A stretch of DNA of 64,000 bases from Bacteroidota bacterium (GTDB lineage Bacteria; Bacteroidota; Bacteroidia; Bacteroidales; Paludibacteraceae), in the NCBI GenBank assembly GCA_021779195.1, contig JAJYBB010000006.1:1-64000 (forward strand), given 5' to 3'. A program made the translations under genes and the position numbers. This document shows positions 7,441 through 25,944 of the stretch, in pieces. The notes beneath the pieces were generated by a model. It ran no database searches and had not been told where the DNA came from. It worked only from the letters and a program-made list of their open reading frames with translations. Numbering within the stretch: position 1 is the first letter of the stretch; each line of letters begins with the position of its first letter.

Positions 7441-8895
7441 ATGTTTGAACAGACTTTCAAAAATATCGATGACATATTGCATAAAGATGCAGGATGTGGG
7501 AGTGAATTAGATTATGTTGAGCAATCGTCGTGGATACTTTTTTTGAAATACTTGGATGATTTGGAAACCGCCCGGGCTCTGGAAGCCATGCTTAAAAGCG
7601 AAACCTATCAACCTATAATTGACAAAGATTACAGTTGGAGTACGTGGGCAGCACCCAAAACCGCCGACGGAAAACAAGACCATAACTCAGCCCAATCGGG
7701 CGACGACCTGATTGATTTCGTAAACGCAAAACTCTTTCCCTATTTGCGTAAATTCAAGAACGAAGAAACTTCACCCTTTACCATTGAATATAAAATTGGT
7801 GAGATTTTTGGCGAACTGCGTAACCGCATTTCCAGTGGGTACAATCTGCGGGAAATTCTGTGGATGGTGGACGAACTGAAGTTCCAAACCAGCAAAGAAA
7901 AACACGAACTCAGTCACTTGTACGAAAGCCGCATTCACCGCATGGGTAGTGCCGGACGAAACGGAGGTGAATATTATACACCTCGTCCACTCATTAAAAC
8001 CATTGTAAAAGTAATCAACCCCGAAATTGGCAACACGGTGTACGATGCTGCTTGTGGTAGTGGTGGTTTCTTGTGCGAGGCATTCAACCACATGAAAAAA
8101 AGTGCCAAAGGCGTGGGCGACATGGAAATACTTCAATCACGCAGTTTTTACGGCAAAGAAAAGAAGGGACTGGCTTACATTATTGGCATTATGAACATGA
8201 TTTTGCATGGCATTGAAGCTCCCAATATTATTCACACCAATACATTAGCTGAGAACTTAGCCGACGTACAGGAACGTGACCGTTACGATATTGTATTAGC
8301 TAATCCACCCTTTGGAGGTAAGGAGCGTGACGAAGTGCAACAAAATTTCCCAATACGCACAGGCGAAACAGCTTACTTGTTTATGCAGCATTTTATCAAA
8401 TACCTCAGGGCTGGCGGTCGTGCAGGGATTGTAATTAAAAACACATTCCTGAGCAACACCGACAATGCTTCGGTGGCTCTCCGCCGCAAGCTGCTCGAAG
8501 AATGCAACTTGTATGCAGTGCTCGACCTTCCTGGTGGTGTGTTTACCGGTGCAGGTGTGAAAACTGTAGTTTTATTTTTCGATAAAGGACAACCAACCGA
8601 GAATATCTGGTATTACCAACTCAAACTAACCCGCAATTTGGGGAAAACAAGCCCATTGAACGAAAAAGATTTAGCCGAATTCGTGGCACTTCAGCATAAA
8701 AATGAAGAGAGCGAAAATTCATGGATAATAAATGTGGCTGACCTTGATTCTGCTACACTGGACTTATCAGCCAAAAACCCAAACCGTAAAGAAGAAACCG
8801 ACCTTCGTACTCCTGCTGAAATAGCTGCCGAAATGCAAGACATAAACGAAGAAAACACCCTGTTATTAAACGATATTCTAAGTCTGTTGCAATGA
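7441..8895 (+). CDS. hsdM: Type I restriction-modification DNA methyltransferase subunit
   Basis: A 484-residue adenine-N6 methyltransferase. It has the N-terminal HsdM helical domain (about 1-150), then the SAM-binding motif I DAACGSGGF starting at D202, and the catalytic motif IV NPPF at 288-291 (N6-adenine type). The length is normal for the shorter HsdM family. It acts in the nucleus of the M2S methylase and, with HsdR, in restriction. It overlaps hsdS by the ATGA at 8892-8895, so the two are co-translated. No catalytic residue is missing. Confidence 0.93.
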   Translation: MFEQTFKNIDDILHKDAGCGSELDYVEQSSWILFLKYLDDLETARALEAMLKSETYQPIIDKDYSWSTWAAPKTADGKQDHNSAQSGDDLIDFVNAKLFPYLRKFKNEETSPFTIEYKIGEIFGELRNRISSGYNLREILWMVDELKFQTSKEKHELSHLYESRIHRMGSAGRNGGEYYTPRPLIKTIVKVINPEIGNTVYDAACGSGGFLCEAFNHMKKSAKGVGDMEILQSRSFYGKEKKGLAYIIGIMNMILHGIEAPNIIHTNTLAENLADVQERDRYDIVLANPPFGGKERDEVQQNFPIRTGETAYLFMQHFIKYLRAGGRAGIVIKNTFLSNTDNASVALRRKLLEECNLYAVLDLPGGVFTGAGVKTVVLFFDKGQPTENIWYYQLKLTRNLGKTSPLNEKDLAEFVALQHKNEESENSWIINVADLDSATLDLSAKNPNRKEETDLRTPAEIAAEMQDINEENTLLLNDILSLLQ

Positions 8896-10103
8896 AAAAA
8901 GGGTGGGAAATAAAAAAACTTTCTGAAATAGGGAAAGTATTTAATGGCAACAGTATTAATGAAAAAGTCAAGAAAGACAAATATTTAGGCATTGATAATG
9001 GATTCCCTTTCATAGCAACAAAAGATATTAGCTATGAAAGTGTTATTGATTATGATAATGGAGTTAAAATCCCATTTGAAGAAAAGTCGTCTTTTAAAAC
9101 TGCACCGGAGAATACAGTTCTTATTTGTGCAGAAGGCGGAAGCGCAGGAAGAAAAATAGGATTTACAAATCAGACTGTTTGCTTTGGGAATAAGTTGTTT
9201 GCTCTTGCAACGAATAAGAATGTTGATAGTCGCTACGTTTACTATTATTATTTCAGTTCAACATTTCAGAAACACTTTGCTGTTGAATTAACAGGTATTA
9301 TTGGTGGTGTTTCAATGAATAAATTTAAAGATTTAGAAATTCCAATTCCACCTCTTCCTGAACAGCAACAAATCGTTGAATTTTTAGATAATGCCTTTAA
9401 AAAGATTAACGAATTAAAAGCCAATGCCGAACGGAATCTACAAAATGCCAAAGAACTGTTTGAAAGTGCATTGACAGACGAATTGAAAACAAGAAAAGGA
9501 TGGGAAGAAAAAAAATTGGGAGAACTTGCCACTTTTAGAAATGGTATGAATTTTACAAGGACTGGAAAAGGTGACGTGATACAAATAGTTGGAGTAAAGG
9601 ACTTTCAGAAAAGTTTTTGGGTTCCATTTGACACCTTAGAAACAGTAACGTTGGATGGCAAACTTAATGAAATAGATTTACTTAAAGAAAATGATATTTT
9701 GGCGGTACGCTCTAATGGCAATCCAGCACTTATTGGTAGAACTCTATTATCTGGTAAAGTAAACGGAAATATTTCTCATTCAGGTTTTACAATCAGAATA
9801 AGATTAGATTCGTCCATTATTTCACCGATTTATTTATGTCATTATTTAAAGACACAAAAAACGAGAAAAGAGCTCGTTGATAGTGGCAATGGAGTTGGAA
9901 TCAAAAGTTTGAATCAAGGTTCGCTTTCTTCTTTATCAATTCCTTTTCCTAAATCACTTATCGAACAGCAAACCATAGTTCAAAAGTTAGAGGTTTTATC
10001 TTCTAATTGTCAATCATTGGAAACCAACTATCAAAAAACGATTGTTCAATGTGAGGAACTAAAAAAAGCAGTATTGGCAAAAGCATTTAATGGGGAATTA
10101 TAA
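8892..10103 (+). CDS. hsdS: Type I restriction-modification specificity subunit
   Basis: A 403-residue HsdS with the two-fold layout of target recognition domain, central conserved helix, second target domain and final helix. The first half opens KGWEIKKLSEIGKVF and the second KGWEEKKLGELATFR, marking the two TRDs. Conserved helices follow PLPEQQQIVEFLD and SLIEQQTIVQKLE. It sets the DNA sequence that is methylated or cut; the sequence itself cannot be predicted here. It is placed between hsdM and an AlbA_2 ATPase gene that starts at or overlaps its stop codon. Only one hsdS is present, and no recombinase-shuffled spare TRD is seen. Confidence 0.93.
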   Translation: MKKGWEIKKLSEIGKVFNGNSINEKVKKDKYLGIDNGFPFIATKDISYESVIDYDNGVKIPFEEKSSFKTAPENTVLICAEGGSAGRKIGFTNQTVCFGNKLFALATNKNVDSRYVYYYYFSSTFQKHFAVELTGIIGGVSMNKFKDLEIPIPPLPEQQQIVEFLDNAFKKINELKANAERNLQNAKELFESALTDELKTRKGWEEKKLGELATFRNGMNFTRTGKGDVIQIVGVKDFQKSFWVPFDTLETVTLDGKLNEIDLLKENDILAVRSNGNPALIGRTLLSGKVNGNISHSGFTIRIRLDSSIISPIYLCHYLKTQKTRKELVDSGNGVGIKSLNQGSLSSLSIPFPKSLIEQQTIVQKLEVLSSNCQSLETNYQKTIVQCEELKKAVLAKAFNGEL

Positions 10104-11556
10104 TATGGAAACAGAAAAATACACAAAACTAATCAATGATTTGGTACGTATGCCAGCTGAATGTGAGTGGATGGAATTTAAGCAGAATTTCCACTCGCCC
10201 GAAGAAATTGGCGAGCGCATTTCAGCCCTTTCAAACGGTGCTTGTTTACACAATCAACCTTACGGCTATTTGGTTTTTGGCGTAAAAGATGGTACGCACG
10301 AAATTACGGGTACTACTTTCAAAGTAAAAACCCATACCAGGGGTAACGAAAACCTGGAGAATTGGCTAATAAACCGCTTAAGTCCCCGCATTGATTTTGT
10401 GGCTCATGAGTTCGACTATGATCACGAAAGGCACATTTCGCTTTTCGTCATTCCTGCTGCCACCAATCGCCCAGTCGATTTCCTGAACACTTCTTACATA
10501 CGTGTTGGCAGTGTTACACGCAAATTGAGTGAGTTCCCCGAGAAAGAAGCAAAAATTTGGCGCACTGCTTCGGGTACTGTTTTCGAGAAAGAAATTGCAA
10601 AAACCAATGTAAGTGCTGCGGATATAATCCAACTGCTCAGCACTCAAACCTATTTCGATCTGCTTAAAATTCCCTATCCGTCAAACCAACAGGGCGTTAT
10701 TGAAAAATTTATTTCCGAAGGCCTCATTGTAAAAGACAAAGTAAATTACCACATAACAAATCTGGGTGCTATACTCTTTGCTAAAAATCTAACCGATTTT
10801 GATTCGGTCTATCGCAAATCGGTAAGAGTGATAGTGTACAAAGGAAAAAATAAAATCGAAACCATTCGGGAGCAAATTGGTACCAAAGGGTATGCAGTTG
10901 GTTTCGAAGGATTGGTCGATTGGATTAATAGCCAGTTGCCTGCCAACGAGGAAATAGGTAAAGCATTACGCAAAGAAACCCGGATGTACCCCGAAATTGC
11001 CATTCGTGAATTGGTTGCAAATGCCATTATTCACCAGGACTTTTCCGAAAAAGGTTTTCCGATGGTTGAAATCTATTCCGACCGTATTGAAATTTCCAAT
11101 CCCGGAAACCCACTTATCAATCCCGAACGGTTTATCGACGAATATATCTCACGTAACGACAAGTTAGCTGACCTGATGCGCCGTATGGGTTATTGTGAGG
11201 AAAAAGGTAGCGGATTAGATAAAGTAATTTTCTATGTGGAATTATTTCAGCTTCCTGCAATCAATGTTATTAATGGCGATAACCGTACAAGTGTAACCAT
11301 GTATAGCTATATGCCACTCAACGACATGGATAAAAAAGATAGAGTGCGTGCTTGTTATCAACATGCCTGCCTGAAATATGTGTCCAATGAAAAAATGACC
11401 AATCAAAGTTTACGTGAGCGGTTTCAGATTGAGGTTCATAACTATTCCATTGCCTCACGTATCATTCGGGAAGCAATGGACGAGGGTGTGATTAAAGAAA
11501 TTGATCCTGATAATAAATCCCGCAAATATGCTGGATATATTCCATTCTGGGCATGA
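10090..11556 (+). CDS. AlbA_2/Schlafen-type ATP-binding protein linked to the restriction operon
   Basis: A 488-residue protein with an N-terminal AlbA_2 domain (about 18-150; ECEWMEFKQNFHSPEEIGER, then YGYLVFGVKDGTHEITG) and a C-terminal ATP-binding domain of the HATPase_c_4 type with ELVANAIIHQDF and a Gly-rich GSGLDKVIF. A winged-helix tail is likely. The family is often encoded beside type I systems and other defence genes, as a putative DNA- or RNA-binding regulator; its exact job there is not established. The ATG at 10090 overlaps hsdS; ATG 10105, one base after the hsdS stop, is a good alternative. It ends the first restriction operon. Confidence 0.82.
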   Translation: MGNYNMETEKYTKLINDLVRMPAECEWMEFKQNFHSPEEIGERISALSNGACLHNQPYGYLVFGVKDGTHEITGTTFKVKTHTRGNENLENWLINRLSPRIDFVAHEFDYDHERHISLFVIPAATNRPVDFLNTSYIRVGSVTRKLSEFPEKEAKIWRTASGTVFEKEIAKTNVSAADIIQLLSTQTYFDLLKIPYPSNQQGVIEKFISEGLIVKDKVNYHITNLGAILFAKNLTDFDSVYRKSVRVIVYKGKNKIETIREQIGTKGYAVGFEGLVDWINSQLPANEEIGKALRKETRMYPEIAIRELVANAIIHQDFSEKGFPMVEIYSDRIEISNPGNPLINPERFIDEYISRNDKLADLMRRMGYCEEKGSGLDKVIFYVELFQLPAINVINGDNRTSVTMYSYMPLNDMDKKDRVRACYQHACLKYVSNEKMTNQSLRERFQIEVHNYSIASRIIREAMDEGVIKEIDPDNKSRKYAGYIPFWA

Positions 11557-11573
11557 TTTCTTCTCGATAGTAA

Positions 11574-12090
11574 TTCTTATGTGACGGTCATGTGATAGAA
11601 ACCGGCATTCTAAAATTACATAACTGATTTTCAGCACTTCCTTATTTGATGGTTATGTGATGAATCTTTTGATTAATTCTATTGAGCAAAACTTGTAAGA
11701 AAACGGATAAATGCTTTATAAGATGCTCTATAGAAACAAAACGTTTTAATGTATTATTAAAGCAAAACATGCAAGAAAACGACCAAATGCTTTAATTGTG
11801 CTTTAATTGGAGCTTGTTTTTATAAAGCAAAAGTTGTAAGAAAACGCATAAATGCTCAATAGTTTGCTCTATAGAAAATAGTAAAGTTTATTTGATGGTT
11901 ATTTGATAAATCTAACCGCACTTATTAGTAAGTAGCTGATAATCTATCAATTCTTATTTGACGGTTATTTGATAGATGTGGTTTTATAGGATAATATTTC
12001 TTATGTGACGGTCATGTGATAGAAATGCACATTTTTAAAACACATTGCTGATTTACAGCATATTCTTATGTGATGGTTATGTGATAGACG
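11574..12090. repeat. Interspersed repeat tract: six A repeats and three B repeats, non-coding
   Basis: The gap between the AlbA_2 gene and hsdR holds two repeat families. Family A (about 28 bp, built from two TTATGTGA/TTATTTGA units 11 bp apart) lies at 11574-11601, 11638-11664, 11887-11910, 11951-11978, 11998-12025 and 12063-12090; the first and fifth are identical. Family B (31 bp, AGCAAAAC...AAATGCT) lies at 11685-11715, 11761-11791 and 11826-11856. The A1-A2 and A5-A6 pairs also share a related spacer containing CTGATTT and CAGCA. It is not a CRISPR. Possible roles are iterons, tandem operators or an oriT; none can be proven here. Confidence 0.65.
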
Positions 12091-12121
12091 AAATACAAAC
12101 TCAAATTATAACAAACTTTAG

Positions 12122-12135
12122 CCCCCTTTAGGGGG
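12122..12135. repeat. GC-rich REP-like palindrome before hsdR
   Basis: CCCCC and GGGGG flank TTTA, then comes a G-rich tail (TTGGGGGTAGG). It lies 22 bases before the hsdR start codon and could affect its translation. The same kind of palindrome sits inside two replication genes of the element. Confidence 0.5.
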
Positions 12136-12157
12136 TTGGGGGTAGGTCTTTAATCTT

Positions 12158-14590
12158 ATGAATGAATCTCAAACCCGACTCGACAAAATTGACCCCAAGC
12201 TAAAACAAGCAGGTTGGAACGTTACGGACGATAGCCGTATCATTACCGAATACGTCATTGCTAAAGGAAAAATCAGTATTTCTGAAAAACAAAAAATACT
12301 GAAAGCCGATTATATTCTGAGCTACAAGGGCGTAAAATTAGCCATTGTCGAAGCCAAAAGTGATGAATTACCTGTTGGTGAGGGAGTCATGCAAGCCAAG
12401 CTCTACGCTCAAATGATGCGTATTCGCTATGCATACGCTACCAACGGAAACGAGATTTATGAAATAGATAGGAAAACGGGCGAAGAAGGACCCGTTACCG
12501 AATTTCCAAGCCCCGAAATACTGTGGAATCGTACTTTCGGAGACGTAAACGAATGGCGCGATAAATTCTACGCTGAACCGTTCTACATTGACGAAGGTAA
12601 AAAGTTACGCTACTATCAGGAAATTGCCGTAAATCGTGTGCTCGAAGCCATAGCCAACGAAAAAATACGCATATTACTTACACTTGCTACCGGAACAGGA
12701 AAAACCATGCTTGCATTTCAAATTGCATGGAAACTGTATCAAACCCGATGGAATATCAGCAAATCCGAACGCCGACCACGCATTCTCTTTCTGGCCGACC
12801 GAAATATATTAGCCAATCAGGCTTTCAATGGTTTTGGTGGTTTTAGTAAAATGGACGAAAACAGCGTAACTCGTATAAGTCCCAAAAGTATCAAAAAGAA
12901 AGGCGGACAAGTTCCCAAAAATGCCAGTGTATTCTTTACCATTTTCCAAACATTCGATTCTGGCGATGCCGAACCTCATTTTGGTCAGTACCCGCAGGAC
13001 TTTTTCGATTTTATCATTATCGACGAGTGTCACCGTGGCGGTGCAAGCGACGAGAGCCGTTGGCGCAGAATTATGGAGTATTTTTCACCGGCAGTGCAGT
13101 TGGGCTTAACCGCCACACCCCGACGTGATGTAAATGCCGATACTTATGATTATTTTGGAAAACCTGTGTTTGAGTATTCACTCAAAGAAGGCATAAACGA
13201 TGGATATCTCACACCTTTCCGACATGTGGTATTGCAAAGCAATATCGATAATTACGTGTATCAACCCACCGACACCATTGTGGATGGCGATATAGACGAA
13301 GTAGAAAAACTCGTAAAAGGGAAAACCTATGTTGAAACTGATTTTTATCAGGGCAAAATTGAAATAAAACAACGTGATGAAGCTCGGGTAAAAGAGTTTA
13401 TGAAGAATATGGGCAAGACAGAGAAAACGCTCATATTCTGTTATACACAAGCCCATGCAGCAGCAATCAGGGATTTGATTAACCAGCAAAAGAAAGTAAA
13501 TAACGCTTTGTATTGTGTTCGTGTAACCGCTAACGATGGTGAACAGGGCGAAAACTATCTCAAAGAATTTCAGGACAACGAAAAAACAATACCAACAATA
13601 CTCACCACCTCACAAAAACTCTCAACAGGAGTTGATGCGCTCAATGTACGTAATATCGTTCTGCTCCGCCCAATCAATTCAATGATTGAGTTTAAACAGA
13701 TTATTGGACGTGGTACCCGGTGCTTTGATGGTAAATCTTATTTTACGATATACGATTTTGTGGAGGCATACAAGAAGTTTGCTGACCCGGCTTGGGATGG
13801 ACTTCCTGTTTGTAGCAAATGTGGTGAAGATCCTTGCACTTGCGAAAAGAAACCTCAACCTTATCCATGTCCTGAATGTGGCGAAATTCCATGTGTGTGC
13901 GAAACTACTACTGAACCGTGTCCGGTGTGTGGTCAAGACCCTTGCACTTGTCCAAAACAAACTGAACCATGTCCGAAATGTGGAAACCTGCCCTGTACAT
14001 GTGTGAAAAAACGATCATTGATAGTTAACCTTTCTGACGGTCGCACCCGACAAATACAACATATAAAGACCGATTTCTTTTGGGATGCTGATGGAAAACC
14101 CATTTCAGCACAAGACTTTCTGGAAAAAATGTTTGGTCAGTTACCCGATTTTTTCAGCGATGAAGAAGAACTCCGCAAAACATGGTCAGACCCATACACC
14201 CGCAAAGTGTTATTGGGGAAAATGGCTGATGTAGGTTACGACGACGAAGTGTTGAAGAAAGTACAAACCATTATTAATGCCGAAAATAGCGACTTGTACG
14301 ATGTGTTGGAATACATTGCTTTTGCCAAAGAACCTATTGAACGGCTTCAACGTGCCAACACAGCTCAGGCGCATGGCTACATTGGCTTAAACGAGAAGCA
14401 AAAGGAATTTATCAACTTCGTTCTGGCCAAATACATTGAATCCGGTGTAAACGAACTCTCAATCGAAAACCTGCCCGAATTACTCAAATTCAAATACGGA
14501 ACAGCTATGGACGGAATCCGTGAACTGGGCGACATTCAGATTACTCAAAACACCTTTGTTGGTTTCCAGAAGTATCTATACGGGGCGTAA
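12158..14590 (+). CDS. hsdR: Type I restriction endonuclease/translocase subunit with Cys-rich insertion
   Basis: An 810-residue HsdR of the EcoEI-like group. The N-terminal nuclease region has a PD-(D/E)xK-like core (DYILSYKGVKLAIVEAK). The superfamily 2 motor follows, with Walker A ATGTGKT (177-183), DECHRGG (289-295) and LGLTATP, then the second RecA domain and the arginine-finger region IGRGTRC. Residues 552-615 hold four back-to-back Cys-rich units of the form CPxCGxxPCTC, 16 cysteines in all, likely zinc-binding. The C-terminus is the usual helical EcoEI-type domain. It starts the second restriction operon, separated from hsdM-hsdS by the repeat tract. Confidence 0.93.
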   Translation: MNESQTRLDKIDPKLKQAGWNVTDDSRIITEYVIAKGKISISEKQKILKADYILSYKGVKLAIVEAKSDELPVGEGVMQAKLYAQMMRIRYAYATNGNEIYEIDRKTGEEGPVTEFPSPEILWNRTFGDVNEWRDKFYAEPFYIDEGKKLRYYQEIAVNRVLEAIANEKIRILLTLATGTGKTMLAFQIAWKLYQTRWNISKSERRPRILFLADRNILANQAFNGFGGFSKMDENSVTRISPKSIKKKGGQVPKNASVFFTIFQTFDSGDAEPHFGQYPQDFFDFIIIDECHRGGASDESRWRRIMEYFSPAVQLGLTATPRRDVNADTYDYFGKPVFEYSLKEGINDGYLTPFRHVVLQSNIDNYVYQPTDTIVDGDIDEVEKLVKGKTYVETDFYQGKIEIKQRDEARVKEFMKNMGKTEKTLIFCYTQAHAAAIRDLINQQKKVNNALYCVRVTANDGEQGENYLKEFQDNEKTIPTILTTSQKLSTGVDALNVRNIVLLRPINSMIEFKQIIGRGTRCFDGKSYFTIYDFVEAYKKFADPAWDGLPVCSKCGEDPCTCEKKPQPYPCPECGEIPCVCETTTEPCPVCGQDPCTCPKQTEPCPKCGNLPCTCVKKRSLIVNLSDGRTRQIQHIKTDFFWDADGKPISAQDFLEKMFGQLPDFFSDEEELRKTWSDPYTRKVLLGKMADVGYDDEVLKKVQTIINAENSDLYDVLEYIAFAKEPIERLQRANTAQAHGYIGLNEKQKEFINFVLAKYIESGVNELSIENLPELLKFKYGTAMDGIRELGDIQITQNTFVGFQKYLYGA

Positions 14591-14618
14591 AATAGATGTT
14601 TAACAAAAATACCAAACA

Positions 14619-15158
14619 ATGAAACTATCAGATTTACTGAAAGAAAGCAAGTGGGACAAAGTCAAATCTTATCTACTTCAGTATTATGGTGCTAAAGAAA
14701 ATGATATTGTATTTTCCGAAAAAAGTATTGAAGAATACAAGAAAGTATATCATAGCTTATTTCACATAGAAGTTGCACCAAGCGAAATGCTTATATGGAT
14801 TAAGTTTGATACTTACGACGACGATGATGAAATTTATCCTCGTGTTTATGCTACAGATACCACTTTGAGAGCAAATTCAACTGAATTGGAACACTTTGAT
14901 ATTACTCCTGTACCTTGGAAAGAATGGTTGGGTATGGAAATTTCAGATAAAACAGCTAACGAACTGGATTTGAATAAAATTGTTGCATTATGTTTGTACG
15001 AAATGACCTTTACCGGTTTTGACGAAGAAACTATTCAACAATATTGGGATAAACTATATAAAGAATCTGAAGAATTGAAAAACATGACTCCGGAAGAAAG
15101 AAAGGAGCATACTTTCACAGTGGATGATTTAAGAAAAGAATTGGGACTGGATTTGTAA
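14619..15158 (+). CDS. Unknown acidic protein downstream of hsdR
   Basis: A 179-residue soluble protein, rich in Asp and Glu (for instance DTYDDDDEIYPRVYATD), with no signal peptide or membrane segment. It may belong to a small family of unknown function seen in Bacteroidetes, possibly DUF6557-like, but I am not sure. It starts 28 bases after hsdR and probably shares its transcript. The acidic patch could suggest DNA mimicry or an inhibitor, though that is only speculation. No catalytic motif is recognised. Confidence 0.6.
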   Translation: MKLSDLLKESKWDKVKSYLLQYYGAKENDIVFSEKSIEEYKKVYHSLFHIEVAPSEMLIWIKFDTYDDDDEIYPRVYATDTTLRANSTELEHFDITPVPWKEWLGMEISDKTANELDLNKIVALCLYEMTFTGFDEETIQQYWDKLYKESEELKNMTPEERKEHTFTVDDLRKELGLDL

Positions 15159-15290
15159 AATAAAATTGACTTTACTACTGTTATGATAGGTTTTAAATGG
15201 CGCAAAGCATTAAACTATAGGTGATTGATATGAAATACTTTAATTTATAAACTTTTTATTATTGACTTAACACCACTTAATAAATACTCT

Positions 15291-15758
15291 ATGGAACCAA
15301 CAAAAGAAAACACCTTGTATTTGCCCATTAAGCAAATCTATTTCGATGCAATTATTGAAGGCACAAAAAAAGAAGAATACAGGGAAATAAAAGACACTAC
15401 TTTTAAAAAGTATCTCGAAACATGGAAAGAAAACGGAGAGGAAGGATTTATGTTCGAGGAAGAAAAAGTCAATCCAGATCAAGAGCTTGACATTATGATG
15501 TATAACAATGGCGTTTATCCCTTTATCCCTATTGAGTACAACTACCTTTATTTGGCAGTAGGTTACGAAAAAGAACGTGACACAGCCACTGTAGAAGTAA
15601 CGGATATTACTTTTGAGATTGCAAAAGATAAAAATGGGAAAGATGTTCGTTTTTTCTGGGATAAGAAAGATGGTTTTAGAGCCGACGAAAATGGAGATAG
15701 TGCAATGTGGAATGTTGTATATCATTTAGGTAAAATTGTTGATTTGCATAGAAAATAA
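15291..15758 (+). CDS. ASCH-domain protein
   Basis: A 155-residue protein with features of the ASCH/PUA-like fold: LPIKQIYFDAIIEGTKKEEYR near the N-terminus (the Gly-x-Lys-x-x-Glu-x-Arg signature) and a later EVTDITFE strand. Family members bind RNA or nucleotides; some are amidohydrolases or ribonucleases, others regulators. It lies 131 bases after the previous gene and 6 bases before the HD gene, so it is most likely co-transcribed with HD and GmrSD genes. Substrate unknown. Confidence 0.7.
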   Translation: MEPTKENTLYLPIKQIYFDAIIEGTKKEEYREIKDTTFKKYLETWKENGEEGFMFEEEKVNPDQELDIMMYNNGVYPFIPIEYNYLYLAVGYEKERDTATVEVTDITFEIAKDKNGKDVRFFWDKKDGFRADENGDSAMWNVVYHLGKIVDLHRK

Positions 15759-15764
15759 TCATTT

Positions 15765-16319
15765 ATGGATATTCAATCCGTTTATCAAAAAACCATTCGA
15801 TATGCTGCCGGGAAGCATGCTGAGTTACAACAGACTTTACCCGACAGTATAATTCCGTATGCAGTTCATTTGAGTAATGTGGCTATGGAAATACTGGTTG
15901 CAGCTTCGCAGACTAAGGACTTTGATACAGAATTTGCTATACAGGTAGCTTTGTTGCATGATATATTGGAAGATACTCATGTAACATTTGAAGAATTGGC
16001 AAATGAGTTTGGTAGTAATATAGCAATGGGAGTTTTGGCATTGACCAAAAGAGAGTTTCTTCCAAAAGATCAGCAAATGCCCGATAGTCTTTCACGCATA
16101 AAATTGTGTGCGCCTGAAGTCCGTGCCGTTAAACTCGCCGACAGAATAACAAATCTACAAAAGCCGCCAATGTCATGGACAACTGAAAAGAAACAGAAAT
16201 ACATGAAAGAAGCTAAACTTATTCTAAAAGAATTAAGCGGTACAAATGAATACCTTGAAAACCGAATGCAATTAAAAATCGAAGCATACAAAGAGTATAT
16301 TTTAGATTCAAAATCTTAA
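15765..16319 (+). CDS. HD-domain hydrolase, SpoT/MESH1-like
   Basis: A 184-residue single-domain HD phosphohydrolase. The metal-binding HD pair is H65-D66 in LLHDILEDTHVTFEEL, as in RelA/SpoT hydrolase domains, and the later VKLADRITNLQ matches the conserved KLADR motif. No synthetase, TGS or ACT domain is present, so it is like the small alarmone hydrolases. The likely reaction is removal of pyrophosphate from (p)ppGpp or a related nucleotide, inferred from family. It starts 6 bases after the ASCH stop, suggesting translational coupling. Confidence 0.78.
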   Translation: MDIQSVYQKTIRYAAGKHAELQQTLPDSIIPYAVHLSNVAMEILVAASQTKDFDTEFAIQVALLHDILEDTHVTFEELANEFGSNIAMGVLALTKREFLPKDQQMPDSLSRIKLCAPEVRAVKLADRITNLQKPPMSWTTEKKQKYMKEAKLILKELSGTNEYLENRMQLKIEAYKEYILDSKS

Positions 16320-16347
16320 TCTCATAATACTGAAATAACAAAATAAT

Positions 16348-18156
16348 ATGGCTGAAAAATATCAATCCTCCAGTGTCAGTATTGAACAAATACTCAATTT
16401 GATAAAATCAAACGAAATTGCTATACCGGAAATACAACGTCCGTTTGTTTGGAAACCGAAACAAGTAAGGGATTTAATTGATTCGTTATACACAGGCTAT
16501 CCAACGGGTTATTTGATTATATCACAAAGTCCTAATATGCGATTGAGAGATGGCTCACTCTCTGAAGGGAAAAGAATAATGATCGATGGTCAACAACGCA
16601 CAACTGCATTGATGACTGCAATTGTTGGTCAAGAAGTCATAAATTCTGACTTTGAGAAAAAGCGAATAAAAATAGCGTTTAATCCCCTTGCTGATGAAGA
16701 TGAAGAAAGATTTAAGGTACAGGATAACGCAATTCTTAAAGATAAAAAATGGATTGCGGATATTGCGGTAATCTTTAATGCTGAATTCAAAAGAGGTAGT
16801 TTCGTATCAAAATACTGTGAAAACAACCCGGACAAGAACTCTGACAGACTTCATGATATTTTAGATGAACTTATTGGAATAAAGAATAGACAAATTGGAA
16901 TTATTACACTTGATAAGGAGTTGACTATTGATGAAGTTACTGAAATCTTTATTCGTATAAATAGTCAGGGTGCAAAATTAAATCAGGCTGACTTTGCAAT
17001 GTCCAAAATTGCGGCAAATACCATTTATGGAGGTAATATATTGCGGAAGGCAATTGATTATTTTTCGCATTTGGCAGTTCAGCCTGATTGGTATTCAGAA
17101 ATGTCAAAGGATAAAGATTTTATGAATTCTGGTTTTGCCCCAAAAATTAAATGGCTTAAAGATGATATAGGTGATATTTACGATCCCGATTATGGAGATA
17201 TTCTTCGCGTTGCATTAATGCACAAATTTGGCAGAGGTAAAATGAAAGATTTAGTTAGTTTACTTGGTGGGCGTGATTTTATAACTCGCGATTATAAAGA
17301 AGAAATTGCAGAAGAATCGTTCGCAAAACTTACTCAGGGTGTTTATAATTTTATAAATGAATACTCTTTTTCAAATTTTATACTTGCACTTAAATCAGCA
17401 GGTTTTATTTCAAGTCGGCTTATTAATTCCCAAATGACGCTTAACTTCGCATATACCCTTTATTTATTGTTGAATGCAGATAATAATATAGAAAGAACTC
17501 AAATAAAACACTATGTTTCCAAATGGTATGTATTAAGTACTCTTACAAGCCGTTACATATCTTCCCCCGAAACGGTAATGGATAAAGACATTCGGAGAAT
17601 TGCAGAAAAAGGTTTCGTGGAATTCTATAATGAAGTGGAAGCAGCCGAACTTTCTGAAACGTTTTGGTCAATTGGGTTAGTTCAAAATTTAGAAACTTCA
17701 GCTATTAACAGTCCTTATTTTAATACTTTTCTGGCTGCACAAGTGCATAGTGCCGATAATTCATTGTTGATGAATGGTACAAAAGTATATGACTTAATCA
17801 CTATTATGGGCGATATTCACCATATTTTCCCAAAAGACCATTTGGAGTCTCATGGGATAAAAGATAAAGCTAAATATAATCAAATTGCAAATTACACTTA
17901 CTTAGATACTACTACCAACATTGCAATTGGAAATAGACCACCTTGTGAATACTTCGGTACAGTATTCAACCAATGTGATACAAAAGTAATGGTGTATGGA
18001 AATATAAACGATAAAGATAAGTTACTTGATAACTTAGCTGTTAATTGTATCCCTGAAAATATTGTAGATATGGATTACAAACATTATGAGGAGTTTTTGC
18101 TCGAAAGAAGAAAACTAATGGCTAAGAAAATTAAGGAGTATTATTATAGTCTTTAA
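16348..18156 (+). CDS. DUF262/DUF1524 GmrSD-like restriction nuclease
   Basis: A 602-residue fused protein. The N-terminal DUF262 ParB/Srx-like domain has the EIPEIQRPFVWKPKQ and IDGQQRTTAL (79-88) signatures, which in GmrS bind and hydrolyse nucleotide. The C-terminal DUF1524 HNH nuclease has IHHIFPK (H491-H492) and an Asn-rich NYTYLDTTTNIAIGN. GmrSD enzymes are type IV restriction systems that cut modified phage DNA (glucosylated hydroxymethylcytosine in the founding case); the target here is unknown. It lies 29 bases after the HD gene and 16 bases before a WYL regulator, in one apparent operon. Confidence 0.88.
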   Translation: MAEKYQSSSVSIEQILNLIKSNEIAIPEIQRPFVWKPKQVRDLIDSLYTGYPTGYLIISQSPNMRLRDGSLSEGKRIMIDGQQRTTALMTAIVGQEVINSDFEKKRIKIAFNPLADEDEERFKVQDNAILKDKKWIADIAVIFNAEFKRGSFVSKYCENNPDKNSDRLHDILDELIGIKNRQIGIITLDKELTIDEVTEIFIRINSQGAKLNQADFAMSKIAANTIYGGNILRKAIDYFSHLAVQPDWYSEMSKDKDFMNSGFAPKIKWLKDDIGDIYDPDYGDILRVALMHKFGRGKMKDLVSLLGGRDFITRDYKEEIAEESFAKLTQGVYNFINEYSFSNFILALKSAGFISSRLINSQMTLNFAYTLYLLLNADNNIERTQIKHYVSKWYVLSTLTSRYISSPETVMDKDIRRIAEKGFVEFYNEVEAAELSETFWSIGLVQNLETSAINSPYFNTFLAAQVHSADNSLLMNGTKVYDLITIMGDIHHIFPKDHLESHGIKDKAKYNQIANYTYLDTTTNIAIGNRPPCEYFGTVFNQCDTKVMVYGNINDKDKLLDNLAVNCIPENIVDMDYKHYEEFLLERRKLMAKKIKEYYYSL

Positions 18157-18171
18157 AAATATATTTTTTTT

Positions 18172-19082
18172 ATGGATCAGCCAAAACTTGAACGACTCCT
18201 ACGTTTAATGAAATTGCTTACAGCAAATAATTCATTAACCGTTGACGAAATTGCAGCAAAGCTCTCAATTTCTCAACGTTCCGTTTATCGTTATATTGAT
18301 ACATTTCGGGAAGCTGGTTTTGTTATAAAAAAACGGATAATTACATAAAGCTCGATAAATCTTCGCCTTATTTCAAGGATATAAGTCAACTAATACACTT
18401 TACAGAGGAAGAAGCCTTTATTCTCAAATCTGCGATTGAAAATATCGACGAAAACAACTTACTCAAACAAAACCTCAAAAAGAAACTCTATACCGTTTAC
18501 AACTACAACATACTGGCCGAAACCATTGTAAGTGGCAAAAATGGAAAGAATGTTCAACAATTGGTTGATGCAATAGAAAACAAACGCTCGGTAATTCTCC
18601 GTAATTACGCTTCAGCACACGGCAACGATATTCGTGACCGCCATGTGGAAGCCTACGCATTCACAACCAACTATGTACAGGTATGGTGCTATTGCCCCCA
18701 CGAAAAAACAAACAAACTATTCAAAGTATCTCGCATAGGTTCAGTGGAGATATTGCCCGAAAATTGGGGCTCAGAGGAAAATCACAAACCGGGTTACATT
18801 GATATATTTCGCATGAACAGCGATGAATTGCTACCAATAAAACTAAAACTCGGTCTGCGTTCCGCCAATTTACTTATCGAAGAATTCCCACTTGCCACAA
18901 AACACCTCCAAAAATTACCAAATAATGAATGGTTATTAGATACCGAAGTTTGCTCATTCGATGGCGTAGGTCGCTTTGTAATGGGTTTGTTAGACGATAT
19001 TGAAATAATTGATTCACAAGAATTTGAACAACACATTGCAGAAATTTTAAATAAAATGAAAAATAAATTTTCATTGTCATAA
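18172..19082 (+). pseudogene. WYL-domain transcription regulator, frameshifted in a poly-A tract
   Basis: ATG 18172 opens an HTH reading MDQPKLERLLRLMKLLTANN and ends early at 18346. The rest, including the WYL domain (RSVILRNYASAHGND and YVQVWCYCPHEK), lies in the next frame to 19082. Adding one A to the run of seven at 18327-18333 joins them into a protein of about 303 residues. WYL proteins sense ligands and regulate defence operons in many phage-resistance islands. The frameshift could be a phase-variable tract, ribosomal slippage on A7, a real lesion or an error. The C-terminal part alone could start internally at 18561. Confidence 0.75.
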
Positions 19083-19151
19083 GTTGTCAAAATACCATTG
19101 TTACTTTTTACTTTATTTATCTAACTAATAAATCATTTAAAAAGTAACAGT

Positions 19152-19787
19152 ATGAAAAAGTTTAATCTAATTATTTCTATTGCATTTATTTGTGTAATTA
19201 CTTCATTTGCCCAACTCCCATACTCAAAGATGATGGGACTTTCTGTTGACCAGTTAAAAGAAAAAGGATTTAAATTCGACCAAAAAAAGAATCAATACGT
19301 TTTGACCAAAACCGATGGTTTAAACGTTACACTTAACGTTTTAACTGCATTATCAGGTCAGGCCTCAACGTACCAACCTTCAAAAAAAGACTATGTAATT
19401 ACATTACAATACGGTCAGTTAGATAGCTTATCCTCACTAACAGCAACCTTTTATAGTGATGATACATACAATGAAATACAAACATGGTTGGCAGAAAAAA
19501 ATATTCAACCAATTACTTCAAGTTCCGGTAAAGTAACTATACAGAGATTTACTTATGACAGTCTAAAAGTTGAACTTCGGAGCGAAGCTATTCTACAATC
19601 CCAAGGCTCAATGACAAGAAGTAGATATTCAACAAACTCAAATTCAATCGATAAGTCATATACGGTTTATACTTACACAATTTTCACCGGAATAAAGCCA
19701 CAATCTGAATATCTCACAAAATTACAACAGAAAAAGGATGCCAATAAAGCAAAGGGGAAAAAAGAAGATTTAAATGATCTATTCTAA
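19152..19787 (+). CDS. Secreted unknown protein
   Basis: A 211-residue protein with a clear signal peptide (MKKFNLIISIAFICVITSFA, cleavage about 20). The mature part is a mostly beta, Ser/Thr-rich domain, with a Lys-rich tail (QQKKDANKAKGKKEDLNDLF). No lipobox and no known domain were recognised. It lies 69 bases after the WYL reading frame and 35 bases before the vWA gene. Its function is unknown; it is odd to find an exported protein among nucleic-acid defence genes. Confidence 0.6.
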   Translation: MKKFNLIISIAFICVITSFAQLPYSKMMGLSVDQLKEKGFKFDQKKNQYVLTKTDGLNVTLNVLTALSGQASTYQPSKKDYVITLQYGQLDSLSSLTATFYSDDTYNEIQTWLAEKNIQPITSSSGKVTIQRFTYDSLKVELRSEAILQSQGSMTRSRYSTNSNSIDKSYTVYTYTIFTGIKPQSEYLTKLQQKKDANKAKGKKEDLNDLF

Positions 19788-20467: not shown

Positions 20468-20556
20468 AATTAATCAAGGTATATAACACCTTAATGATGA
20501 AAATAATAAAGCAAATTATTTATCAAGCTGTTTACAAACATATTGATTTCATTTTT

Positions 20557-20588
20557 AAACAGACCTTTTCAACAGAATTGGTCTGTTT
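20557..20588 (+). terminator. Rho-independent terminator after the vWA gene
   Basis: AAACAGACC and GGTCTGTTT flank a 14-base loop and are followed by a T-rich run. It separates the vWA gene from the ADP-ribosylglycohydrolase gene, which has its own -7 box. Confidence 0.7.
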
Positions 20589-20623
20589 TGTTTATCTCGA
20601 AAAATTTAATAACAATTTATTTC

Positions 20624-20631
20624 TACCTTTG
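20624..20631 (+). promoter_or_regulatory. -7 box TACCTTTG for the ADP-ribosylglycohydrolase gene
   Basis: TACCTTTG fits TAnnTTTG, 39 bases before the start at 20671. The preceding terminator indicates independent transcription. No clear -33 TTG is seen. Confidence 0.5.
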
Positions 20632-20670
20632 TGAAAGAGTTTTTAATTTCAATTGTAAACCTCATAGTAA

Positions 20671-21864
20671 ATGTTAGGAGCTATATTTGGTGATATAGTT
20701 GGCTCAATATTCGAGTTCAACAACATAAAATCTACTCAATTTGAGTTGATAGGTAAAAGGTCGACGTTCACAGATGATTCGATTCTGACTATTGCTGTAG
20801 CAGATTGGTTATTAATGGGTGTTCTCAATAAAGAGAGACTCATATTTATCATAAAGCAATATGTAAAAGAATATCCTAATCCCCTGGGTGGATATGGTTC
20901 TCGATTTCAGCAATGGGCATTTAGCAGTGATAATGAGCCTTACAAGAGTTGGGGGAACGGTTCAGCTATGCGGGTGGCTGCGGTGGGATGGGCATTCGAT
21001 ACATTGGAAGAAACCGAGAATATTGCGAAACTCACAGCCGAGATAACACACAATCACCCTGAAGGGATAAAAGGAGCACAAGCTACAGCAGCAGCCATTT
21101 ATATGGCACGTACTTGTTCTACTAAATTGGAAATAAAAGAGTATATCGAAAATAATTACGGATATAACTTATCACGTACTTGTGACGAAATTAGACCTGA
21201 TTATAGTTTTAATGAAAGTTGTGCGGGAACTGTCCCCGAAGCAATCATTGCCTTTTTGGATAGCTCAGATTTTGAATCAGCAATTCGTCTGGCAGTGTCA
21301 TTAGGTGGTGATAGCGATACACTCACTTGTATTACCGGTGGTATTGCTGAGGCTTTTTACGGCATGTCCAACAGTATTCCCGAAACTACTATTTCAGAAT
21401 ATAATCTGATTTATTTTGAAGAAGAAACAATTAATCGGCTTCCCGAAAATTTAAAAAAGGTCGTCGCTGAATTTTATCAAACAATTGTAAGTAAAAACAA
21501 ACTATTTTGGGCTAAGAATGATTCGAGAACTGTTTGGGGTGAGGTAAAATGGATAAAAACCAAGTTGGATGATAAAACGCTTGACGAAGAAAGTTATCGT
21601 TCATTCCTCAAATCTTACGGTCCTGATTGGGATATGCGTTTTGGAGTATATTATGAAGATGGCTGGAATTATATTTACAGGTCTAACTTTTTGCTCAAAA
21701 AATTCAAATTTCAAAAACAGGAGGATGGTCAATATCATTTGATTGAATCATATAGCACCCAAAGGGAAGTAGAATATGATATGATTGAAGATGTGCTGTG
21801 GCATGGATATTTTAAACAACCTTATATTTATAAAGGTTTTGTAAGAGGTGAAAGAATTTATTAA
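20671..21864 (+). CDS. ADP-ribosylglycohydrolase with C-terminal extension
   Basis: A 397-residue protein. Residues 1 to about 260 form an ADP-ribosyl-glycohydrolase (DraG/ARH) domain: LGAIFGDIVGSIFEF at the start, metal ligands in STFTDDS (D35-D36) and SLGGDSDT (D214, D216). It would remove ADP-ribose from proteins or nucleic acid or hydrolyse ADP-ribose derivatives. The C-terminal 130 residues (about 270-397) are an unrecognised domain with many aromatic residues. In phage defence the family can counteract or process ADP-ribosylation; here that link is inferred. It is the last forward gene of the element. Confidence 0.85.
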   Translation: MLGAIFGDIVGSIFEFNNIKSTQFELIGKRSTFTDDSILTIAVADWLLMGVLNKERLIFIIKQYVKEYPNPLGGYGSRFQQWAFSSDNEPYKSWGNGSAMRVAAVGWAFDTLEETENIAKLTAEITHNHPEGIKGAQATAAAIYMARTCSTKLEIKEYIENNYGYNLSRTCDEIRPDYSFNESCAGTVPEAIIAFLDSSDFESAIRLAVSLGGDSDTLTCITGGIAEAFYGMSNSIPETTISEYNLIYFEEETINRLPENLKKVVAEFYQTIVSKNKLFWAKNDSRTVWGEVKWIKTKLDDKTLDEESYRSFLKSYGPDWDMRFGVYYEDGWNYIYRSNFLLKKFKFQKQEDGQYHLIESYSTQREVEYDMIEDVLWHGYFKQPYIYKGFVRGERIY

Positions 21865-22143
21865 ATCTTCTATTCCCCCAAAATCCTAAATAAATACCAA
21901 ATGAAAAGCGGTCAGGCTTTGCCTGTAAGTAAATTACGGGCAGCTACGCAGGTCAATCCCCAGCCGCCAAAAATCCCCGCCCCTCGTACCTCTGGGCTTG
22001 CACGGTCTTTTTGTCGGCTTCCGCACAATCAACCCTGCTGTTGTTTTTTTCTGTCACACTTTTTGCAGAATAGCAAAAAAGACGTTTGCACTCCAACCTC
22101 CACCACCGTGCTACACTTGCGCCAGAAAAAAAACAACTCAAAG

Positions 22144-24213: not shown

Positions 24214-24523
24214 TGTAGTATAATTTTACAATAATTCGACGTTGAATTATATGTGTAAAATTATATTGAATTAGAAAGATTTGAAATAGTAAATGCAATG
24301 TAAATCAGAGAAAAATAGGGTGTTTGAGTCGTTTTAGTGATTGTTGCTCATAGATTAAATGAGGATGAATTAAATAATGAAAGGATTGTATTTTACAGGG
24401 AGTATTTAATTCTAAATCAATAATATGCAATGCGATAAGATGATTTGCATGTGGTGCAAATGTGGTGCAATTGATAAAAGCGGAAAACGCAACTGATTGA
24501 ATATCAATTGCGTTTTCTTCTTA
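24214..24523. other. Right end of the element: non-coding, with the paired GTGGTGC motif and a hairpin
   Basis: About 310 bases without a gene. Two GTGGTGCAA motifs 11 bp apart (24451-24470) match those in front of the integrase. A hairpin with arms GAAAACGCAA and TTGCGTTTTC (about 24483-24517) lies just inside attR and may now terminate tRNA-Phe. Confidence 0.6.
24483..24517 (-). terminator. Hairpin terminator supplied by the element for tRNA-Phe
   Basis: GAAAACGCAA and TTGCGTTTTC pair around a short loop extended by TGAT/ATCA. On the minus strand it comes directly after the tRNA-Phe 3' end and attR. It appears to replace the native terminator left at 118-167. Confidence 0.5.
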
Positions 24524-24539
24524 TAAGTGGTACCACCAG
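24524..24539. repeat. attR: right 16 bp attachment repeat
   Basis: Same 16 bp as 167-182. It includes the last 12 bases of tRNA-Phe (acceptor and T-stem 3' strand), so insertion leaves the tRNA whole. Confidence 0.85.
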
Positions 24540-24600
24540 GAATCGAACCGGGGACACAAGGATTTTCAGTCCTTTGCTCTACCAACTGAGCTATGGTACC
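24528..24600 (-). tRNA. tRNA-Phe (anticodon GAA)
   Basis: A 73-base cloverleaf with acceptor stem GGTACCA/TGGTACC, D-arm GCTC/GAGC, anticodon stem AAGGA/TCCTT around CTGAAAA, and T-loop TTCGATT. The discriminator is A and CCA is not encoded. The T stem has one C-T mismatch (CCCGG against CCTGG). Its 3' end is the insertion target of the element. Confidence 0.95.
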
Positions 24601-24793: not shown

Positions 24794-25894
24794 CTAAGGT
24801 AATGCAATTACTGAATTAGGATTCAAACCAATACTATTTAACGTATAAAGCAATTTGCCATTACTATTGAAACAGAGCAAATTTCCTTTGACCGTGTAAT
24901 TACGAGCATCAGCAATATAAATATGTCCATTCTTGGGATTAGCATAAATTGCATATGGTCGCTCAATTTTCGTTGAATCAGTAACAAAATGAGCTGTAAT
25001 TAATTGTTCTTTTTTACAATCAAAAGTCTTTAGATCGAATAAATTCGTTTGATAATCGAAATTATACATAAAAGCAGTATCATTACGAATACAAAAGTTT
25101 GTTACGGGTAAATCAGTAAATACACGCTCAACTAAGTCTGTTTTAGTGTTAATTTTGCTCCAAGTTGGTTTTATACTTCCATTGTTACCTCTGGAAATCA
25201 CGTAAATGTCTCCCTGAGAATCAGCTTGTAACTTGTATGGATTCAATCCTACATCTATTTTCTTAATTTCCACGAATGAATTTATATCAATAACCGAAAT
25301 CGTATGATCATAGTTCGGTTGATCGAGCCCACCGGAATTTGAAACATACAACTTATCATTAGCAAAAGCTATTCCATCAGGGTTACGTCCACAAGTAGTT
25401 ACTGCGTCTACTTTAAGCGAAGAAATATCTATACGTGAAACGGTACCATCAAATGAACAAACATAGGCTTTTTGTTTATCAAATGCAATAAAACGGGGTT
25501 GGCGAGCCATACCGTCAGGGTTGAAAATAGGTATCCTACGAATTGAAGTACCTGTGTTGGGATCAACAATTTCAACTTGAGAAGAAACGTTCACAACAAT
25601 CCACAAGAGATGGTCATAAAATTCCATATCATTTGCTGTATCGCCCAACCCGCGTCCATTAATATTTGTAAAAAAATCAGTTTCAATGGTTCTATTATCA
25701 AAATTTATATTGCATAATGTACTGTTATTCATATTGAAAAGCCCTTCGGAAAGTACAAATAAAATTCCTTTTTCACCCGGTGTGCGCGGTAAACTTACAG
25801 GAGTTGGAACATCATGCATATCATCGCAAGCTGCAAGAAAAACAGTTGCAAGAATGACGAAAAATATAAAATTCGAATGAGAAAAATGAAGCAT
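24794..25894 (-). CDS. Beta-propeller (YncE/DUF5074-like) lipoprotein
   Basis: A 366-residue lipoprotein with lipobox LAAC (Cys23) after a hydrophobic signal. The mature part is a repeat-rich YncE-like beta-propeller (motifs such as VEIVDPNTGTSIRR, VSRIDISSL, ISVIDINS). Such proteins bind ligands or partners at the cell surface; some are linked to cobalamin uptake, but no receptor is beside it. The start is ATG 25894 rather than the TTG one codon earlier. It is the last gene of the minus-strand group 28818-24794, about 50 bases after the SurA-like gene. Confidence 0.75.
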   Translation of the reverse strand: MLHFSHSNFIFFVILATVFLAACDDMHDVPTPVSLPRTPGEKGILFVLSEGLFNMNNSTLCNINFDNRTIETDFFTNINGRGLGDTANDMEFYDHLLWIVVNVSSQVEIVDPNTGTSIRRIPIFNPDGMARQPRFIAFDKQKAYVCSFDGTVSRIDISSLKVDAVTTCGRNPDGIAFANDKLYVSNSGGLDQPNYDHTISVIDINSFVEIKKIDVGLNPYKLQADSQGDIYVISRGNNGSIKPTWSKINTKTDLVERVFTDLPVTNFCIRNDTAFMYNFDYQTNLFDLKTFDCKKEQLITAHFVTDSTKIERPYAIYANPKNGHIYIADARNYTVKGNLLCFNSNGKLLYTLNSIGLNPNSVIALP

Positions 25895-25944
25895 CAAAAT
25901 ATGAACGAAAAGGTGGATAATCCAAACAATAACAAGCGCATAAA

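Follow-up and report, generated by a model that had tools for sequence, protein, structure and literature searches.

Do the genes that follow a type I restriction operon in a Bacteroidota bacterium of the family Paludibacteraceae form a single defence system, or are they separate passengers of the same mobile DNA? The question is raised by positions 14619-19082 of a 64,000-nucleotide stretch (contig JAJYBB010000006.1, positions 1 to 64,000; the window, below). A first-pass annotation had proposed that an acidic protein, an ASCH protein, an HD hydrolase, a GmrSD nuclease and a WYL regulator form one cassette here, joining alarmone or nucleotide signalling to DNA cutting. We find that a mobile element of about 24.4 kb, inserted into the 3' end of a tRNA-Phe gene, carries these genes as cargo. 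The run is probably a set of independent defence and accessory genes that this element carries as interchangeable cargo. We favour this reading because of the repeats, integrase and tRNA-Phe gene that delimit the element, the gene-by-gene replacement in a sister locus, a DUF6557 homologue within another type I operon, the phage-type ASCH protein and the rarity of HD genes beside GmrSD genes.

An element integrated at tRNA-Phe

The ends of the element are marked by a 16-base exact repeat, of which the left copy lies at 167-182 and the right copy (24524-24539) overlaps the 3' end of the tRNA-Phe gene (24527-24600, minus strand). A tyrosine recombinase gene (378-1727, plus strand) adjoins the left repeat. 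Its product matches XerA/XerC/XerD-type models of NCBIfam, the best at E 1.3e-11 and the others more weakly, all under the curated cut-offs. A second repeat, of 22 bases, is present at 311-332 and 24449-24470. The locus thus has both an integrase and direct repeats at a tRNA 3' end, as a tRNA-integrated mobile element does. Besides the flagged genes, the cargo includes DUF3987, DUF6371 and type I restriction-modification genes (7441-14590, plus strand; Pfam N6_Mtase, Methylase_S, SLFN_AlbA_2, ResIII and EcoEI_R_C). The latter comprise hsdM (7441-8895), hsdS (8892-10103), an AlbA/HATPase gene whose start overlaps hsdS (10090-11556) and hsdR (12158-14590), all on the plus strand. This type I system would restrict unmodified DNA. 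The defence setting proposed at first is borne out.

The integration site appears to have been used more than once. In another Paludibacter bin (L036; L-numbers are labels of loci from other genomes that were compared with the window) the HD gene (73%) ends 73 bases from a tRNA-Phe gene (10629-10702), and a homologue (64%) of the window gene at 24794-25897 sits 2.4 kb further on. The same site therefore appears to have carried this hydrolase in another species too.

Layout of the gene run

Positions 14619-19082 hold six plus-strand reading frames rather than five genes: DUF6557, ASCH-like, HD_4 and GmrSD take one each, in this order, and a WYL regulator takes the last two. Pfam, phrog_625, PADLOC and a comparison with L035 bear out the identities first given to these genes. 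From hsdR onward the gaps are 28, 132, 6, 28 and 15 bases. The earlier description of five tightly packed genes after hsdR thus stands as to the mostly short gaps, but not as to the 132-base gap or the two-frame WYL gene; the couplings of 6 and 16 bases it gave measure 6 and 15. With 132 bases behind it, the first gene is not tightly coupled to the others. Tight co-directional packing is by itself ordinary in bacteria. Scans for sigma-70 promoters and terminators performed no better than on shuffled sequence.

Single genes are exchanged in a sister locus

Among 84,980 genomes scanned, 452 stretches encoded an HD relative; the best 80 of these were analysed and probed with the genes of the window at E 1e-5. 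ASCH gave no hit, and GmrSD, DUF6557 and WYL gave one each; the DUF6557 and WYL hits both fell in L034, and the GmrSD hit in L066 (24% identity, 5.2 kb off). This threshold did not pick up a fused ASCH domain in L035, which a later comparison detected. All five genes together occurred in none of the 80 loci, L034 having three. Each of the five genes also served as a probe against 150 genomes of the family, the window's own included (WYL and HD at E 1e-20, GmrSD at E 1e-30), and more than two of the five were found in none of the other 149. Counting the own genome each time, DUF6557 was present in 3 of the 150, ASCH in 7, HD in 2, GmrSD in 12 and WYL in 25; a class-level survey found ASCH in 2 of 149 genomes, again with the own one. 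The same genes together in independent genomes, the mark of a conserved multi-gene defence system, were not found. The recurring linkage expected earlier is thus largely lacking for the full set. Partial combinations do recur: L034 has DUF6557-HD-x-WYL, L035 has a GIY-YIG/ASCH fusion followed by HD and HNH, and L187 has an HD gene from a different subfamily immediately ahead of GmrSD.

The gene order of L034 begins with type III restriction genes and four genes ending in an MksE match, which by reading are Wadjet-like. Next come DUF6557 (86%), HD (88%), an HNH protein and a single-frame WYL gene, then HIRAN and, further on, DraG (96%). DUF6557, HD, WYL and DraG keep their order; ASCH is missing, and an unrelated HNH nuclease, found in 2 of the 150 family genomes, replaces GmrSD. 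DNA similarity between the window and L034 is confined to blocks at 14605-15160 (91% identity), 15763-16301, 18170-19128 and 20518-22026, and the short stretch 19075-19158 likewise matches L034. The first three blocks begin 2-14 bases before a start codon, and their ends fall anywhere from 18 bases short of a stop codon to 46 bases past one; the fourth begins 153 bases before DraG and reaches the end of L034. ASCH, which has no match in L034, and GmrSD fall between the blocks. This pattern indicates replacement of single genes, with no fixed cassette.

These results do not support the cassette as first proposed. One system of ASCH, HD, GmrSD and WYL that joins alarmone signalling to DNA cutting would accord with the short gaps of 6, 28 and 15 bases and with the partial echo in L035 (ASCH domain, HD, HNH), but the complete set was found once, ASCH and GmrSD stand outside the blocks common to L034, the nearest ASCH relative sits in a phage-like gene run and the WYL gene is split. 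We regard such a system as very unlikely.

DUF6557 and ASCH have other affiliations

The first gene of the run (14619-15158, plus strand), 28 bases after hsdR, encodes an acidic protein of 179 aa (pI 4.56) that belongs to DUF6557 (PF20194; Pfam E 6e-30). In L195 a homologue is placed directly between hsdR and hsdM, and for this reason DUF6557 may belong functionally to the type I operon ahead of it. No relatives were found in plasmids, and no paper naming the family was found among the open PMC papers. Membership of DUF6557 in an HD cassette was considered and rejected, since the L195 copy lies inside a type I operon, though the gene adjoins HD in L034. With only three carriers among the 150 genomes, the own one included, this exclusion is an inference.

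The ASCH-domain protein (15291-15758, plus strand; 155 aa) is of phage type (phrog_625 E 1.1e-14), its Pfam ASCH score (E 0.12) being under the cut-off. It aligns with the C-terminal domain of a L035 protein that passes the Pfam ASCH cut-off (31% over 112 columns; E 1e-9, in a one-to-one comparison only). Behind a homologue (57%) in L158 come ParB-like, terminase, portal and tape-measure genes, and no relatives were found in viral contigs and plasmids. The protein would be a phage-type module that binds modified bases or RNA and was gained separately. AlphaFold models of ASCH and of the L034 HNH protein had mean pLDDT values of 36.8 and 32.8, respectively, too low to use.

ASCH domains also form the end of an HsdR protein (L159, 611-4597, minus strand) and of GIY-YIG (T5orf172/MUG113) proteins (L035, 4332-5561; L147, 10014-11231, minus strand), as fusions. 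Links of this sort that have been described are an HsdS-ASCH fusion, free-standing ASCH proteins accompanying type I systems and a fusion of EVE to GIY-YIG (PMC7641849; here and below, papers given by PMC number were available in part). GIY-YIG-ASCH and HsdR-ASCH fusions were not found in the available parts of PMC7641849. Like these described links, the material here has ASCH standalone or fused to restriction proteins (HsdR and GIY-YIG); the standalone protein of the window differs in being phage-type.

The HD protein is a predicted alarmone hydrolase

The HD_4 protein (15765-16319, plus strand; 184 aa; Pfam HD_4 E 1.4e-8) resembles small alarmone hydrolases of the Mesh1 kind. Residues H35, H65-D66, E69-D70, D126 and N130 are invariant across 9 aligned proteins, and a profile of these 9 first matched the structures of Mesh1 and small alarmone hydrolases (E 9.7e-49 to 2.7e-40). 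A lone HD_4 domain thus carries the full set of metal and catalytic residues, and the protein is predicted from its sequence to be an orphan small alarmone hydrolase with intact metal ligands. It is like Mesh1 and bacterial orphans such as XccSAH in size, in the HD_4 family and in the H...HD..ED...D residues, and differs from them in riding a tRNA-integrated element among restriction genes. Its nearest named relatives come from one uncultured Bacteroidales bin and two Paludibacter bins; relatives in phages made up 191 records, every one below 60% identity. Of 13 HD loci classed as Bacteroidales (two of them from one genome), at least five (L034, L035, L037, L052 and L101) have restriction or toxin genes near HD; in L052 there are 3 bases between HD and the end of a methylase/specificity protein ahead of it. 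Activity on both alarmones and NADPH is described for an orphan hydrolase (PMC9765508). The window protein would lower (p)ppGpp-like nucleotides or NADPH and would not be a dedicated partner of GmrSD, its benefit being tied neither to type I restriction nor to GmrSD.

An alternative is that the hydrolase guards against toxic alarmone synthetases or alarmone-based abortive infection, working in defence islands independently of its neighbours. The closest structures, Mesh1 and bacterial small alarmone hydrolases, would suit this role. Bacterial hydrolases are used for self-resistance, and one orphan aided survival against competing bacteria (PMC9765508). The neighbours of the 13 Bacteroidales HD loci match many PADLOC models. 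The PADLOC figures are 171 for the Bacteroidales loci and 16 for other loci, counting models rather than proteins (one type I protein alone matches 98) in samples drawn unlike: on one side every one of the 68 neighbours of the 13 loci that are at least 90 aa long and lie within 3 kb, and 70 of 237 neighbours, the nearer ones, from 23 of 38 non-redundant loci on the other. No synthetase-like neighbour was found in the 80 HD loci with a long RelA/SpoT profile, which may miss divergent toxic synthetases, and this speaks against the guard. We think it unlikely.

GmrSD is a predicted type IV enzyme and rarely adjoins HD

The largest gene of the run (16348-18156, plus strand; 602 aa) encodes a GmrSD-type (DUF262) restriction enzyme that is BrxU-like (Pfam GmrSD_N E 2.1e-32; PADLOC HEC-05 E 3.5e-28). 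Pfam and the translation place a DGQQR motif in its DUF262 domain. Its C-terminal part may be HNH-like, with GmrSD_C (DUF1524 HNH) at E 0.034, under the cut-off, and an HHIFP motif, read by eye, in place of DHIYP. The sole PDB sequence matched was the DUF262 protein 7p9k/7p9m, which we take to be BrxU. The similarity to 7p9k is short and local, and the activity of the window protein is a predicted one; its gene also differs from BrxU in being preceded by HD and ASCH genes. The BrxU paper contains 7P9K once, which fits that identity (PMC8565348). To cut, BrxU depends on the hydrolysis of nucleotides; it prefers ATP, while GTP or CTP inhibits it at high levels. BREX and BrxU complementing each other in one island is a known pattern (PMC8565348). 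The window enzyme would act alone in type IV restriction and, like BrxU, use nucleotides to cleave modified phage DNA.

We examined GmrSD relatives in 22 other genomes (11 of the family and 11 of the class) for HD neighbours, using two profiles, one of them built without the L187 protein. Upstream sequence was at most 1.5 kb in 14 of the 22 and less than 400 bases in three (L178, L199 and L205), which are uninformative. An HD gene was adjacent in one genome (L187); 18 of the 19 informative genomes had none. Of 21 plasmid records (PLSDB) with a GmrSD relative, 8 were inspected; in these no HD gene was listed within 3.5 kb, the gene tables of PLSDB being incomplete, and in 4 of the 8 the relatives adjoin BREX or restriction genes. 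GmrSD relatives were not found in viral contigs.

Several adjacencies weigh against independent cargo. The short gaps suggest that ASCH, HD and GmrSD are co-transcribed. In L034 and L035 the HD gene is followed by an HNH nuclease gene after 28 and 19 bases; the two HNH proteins are 55% alike, and their HNH part matches PADLOC type IV models. Three loci, counting the window, thus have a gene of this hydrolase clade immediately ahead of a nuclease gene. DUF6557 adjoins HD in L034 as well, and in L035 HD comes 2 bases after the GIY-YIG protein whose C-terminal domain is ASCH. In L187 an HD_4 protein ends 8 bases before a GmrSD protein that is 77% identical to that of the window. This HD protein is of another subfamily, 29% identical to the window HD; it scored E 3.3e-4 with Pfam HD_4, under the cut-off, and E 5.5e-13 with the profile built without it.

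Such arrangements could also mean that the hydrolase and the nuclease after it are a functional pair, in which the hydrolase alters a nucleotide that gates or limits a modification-dependent nuclease and the GmrSD/HNH slot is swappable. HD stands directly before GmrSD in the window, before the HNH protein with type IV matches in L034 and L035 and, as a non-orthologous protein, before GmrSD in L187; the dependence of BrxU on nucleotide hydrolysis would fit as well (PMC8565348). However, among the best 80 HD loci such a nuclease was seen directly after HD only in L034 and L035 (46 of the 80 have a same-strand gene at most 150 bases after HD, and these were not each searched for domains), nearly all informative GmrSD relatives lack an HD gene, and groups of 9-12 HD loci (Flavobacterium or Chryseobacterium) have repeated, ordinary chromosomal neighbours in common. 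We consider a functional pair quite improbable. No report was found among the open PMC papers of DUF262 with an HD domain and ASCH, nor of an alarmone hydrolase with type IV restriction.

The WYL regulator is split

The WYL gene occupies two plus-strand frames: an HTH part of 58 aa that ends in a frameshift (18172-18348; HTH_11 E 3.1e-10, and comparison with L034) and a WYL/WCX part in another frame (18333-19082; Pfam WYL E 5.2e-5, PADLOC WYL E 2.2e-11). The WYL part is 83% identical to a one-frame protein of 303 aa in L034; HTH, WYL and WCX thus stand in one polypeptide there and in two frames in the window. The frame breaks in an A-run near 18330 (region 18320-18345). Programmed frameshifting was considered, as the A-run could slip, and was set aside as the main explanation: relatives have full-length copies in a single open frame, so mutation or assembly error is simpler. 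The protein would be a defence-island regulator, broken here or seemingly so by assembly error. Around WYL genes of the family (13 places), HIRAN was beside or near in 4, VWA in 2 and HD in none. The regulator is like BrxR-type proteins in its HTH, WYL and WCX parts and its location with defence genes. It differs in standing last in its run, in two frames, and in its candidate site, a direct repeat where BrxR binds inverted repeats (PMC9122601).

This candidate site, the promoter-like motif TGTCATAAGTTGTCA (19075-19089, plus strand), spans the WYL stop codon and ends 62 bases ahead of the next ATG (19152). The sequence TGTCAWAAGTTGTCA occurs once in the window, over that stop; its number there is not raised, shuffles averaging 7 with 3 mismatches allowed, and with one mismatch it occurs once in the genome, the same as a reversed control. 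Exact copies turn up at 25 places in 20 of the 150 family genomes; the reversed control is present in 5. Six of the 20, all of one genus, have the motif, by reading, at the start of a coding sequence. Among the other 14, 9 have a WYL gene, against 25 of 150 overall (hypergeometric 2.9e-5); the value is 0.0012 with all 20 genomes kept, and leaving out the 6 genomes where the motif adjoins WYL gives 3 of 8 (p 0.07). The motif starts 47-145 bases ahead of an ORF start in 12 of the 25 places, and TAnnTTTG-like boxes are seen by eye behind several. The motif is not ahead of the flagged genes, so control of ASCH-HD-GmrSD by WYL through it is not supported.

As a separate observation, the direct-repeat motif TTGTCAWAAGTTGTCA precedes WYL-linked and defence genes, at 19075-19089 in the window and in L034 (4075, 12394, 13663), L148 (7436, 8134), L185 (9446) and L231. 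It stands ahead of the Wadjet-like operon in L034, of an HTH gene that restriction genes follow in L185 and of a gene that looks Cas9-like, by eye alone, in L231; HIRAN genes are also among those downstream. We regard it as a candidate WYL site. The string TTGTC is absent from the texts of two WYL papers (PMC12340889 and PMC11804915). An imperfect inverted repeat (19099-19149; 22-base arms, 86%) lies between the motif and the ATG of a secreted-like protein at 19152, and this stretch has matches in L034, L147 and L148.

Implications

The case shows how shuffled cargo can pass for a new system, individual genes having been exchanged close to their ends. There is a small chance, in our judgement, that the Bacteroidales clade of small alarmone hydrolases is a modular helper of modification-dependent nucleases. 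The hydrolase would then be kept while GmrSD, HNH and GIY-YIG-ASCH nucleases are swapped, placing nucleotide turnover and DNA cutting in one operon. If the adjacency is functional, a role in restriction would be added to those described for small alarmone hydrolases, as antitoxins or metabolic enzymes.

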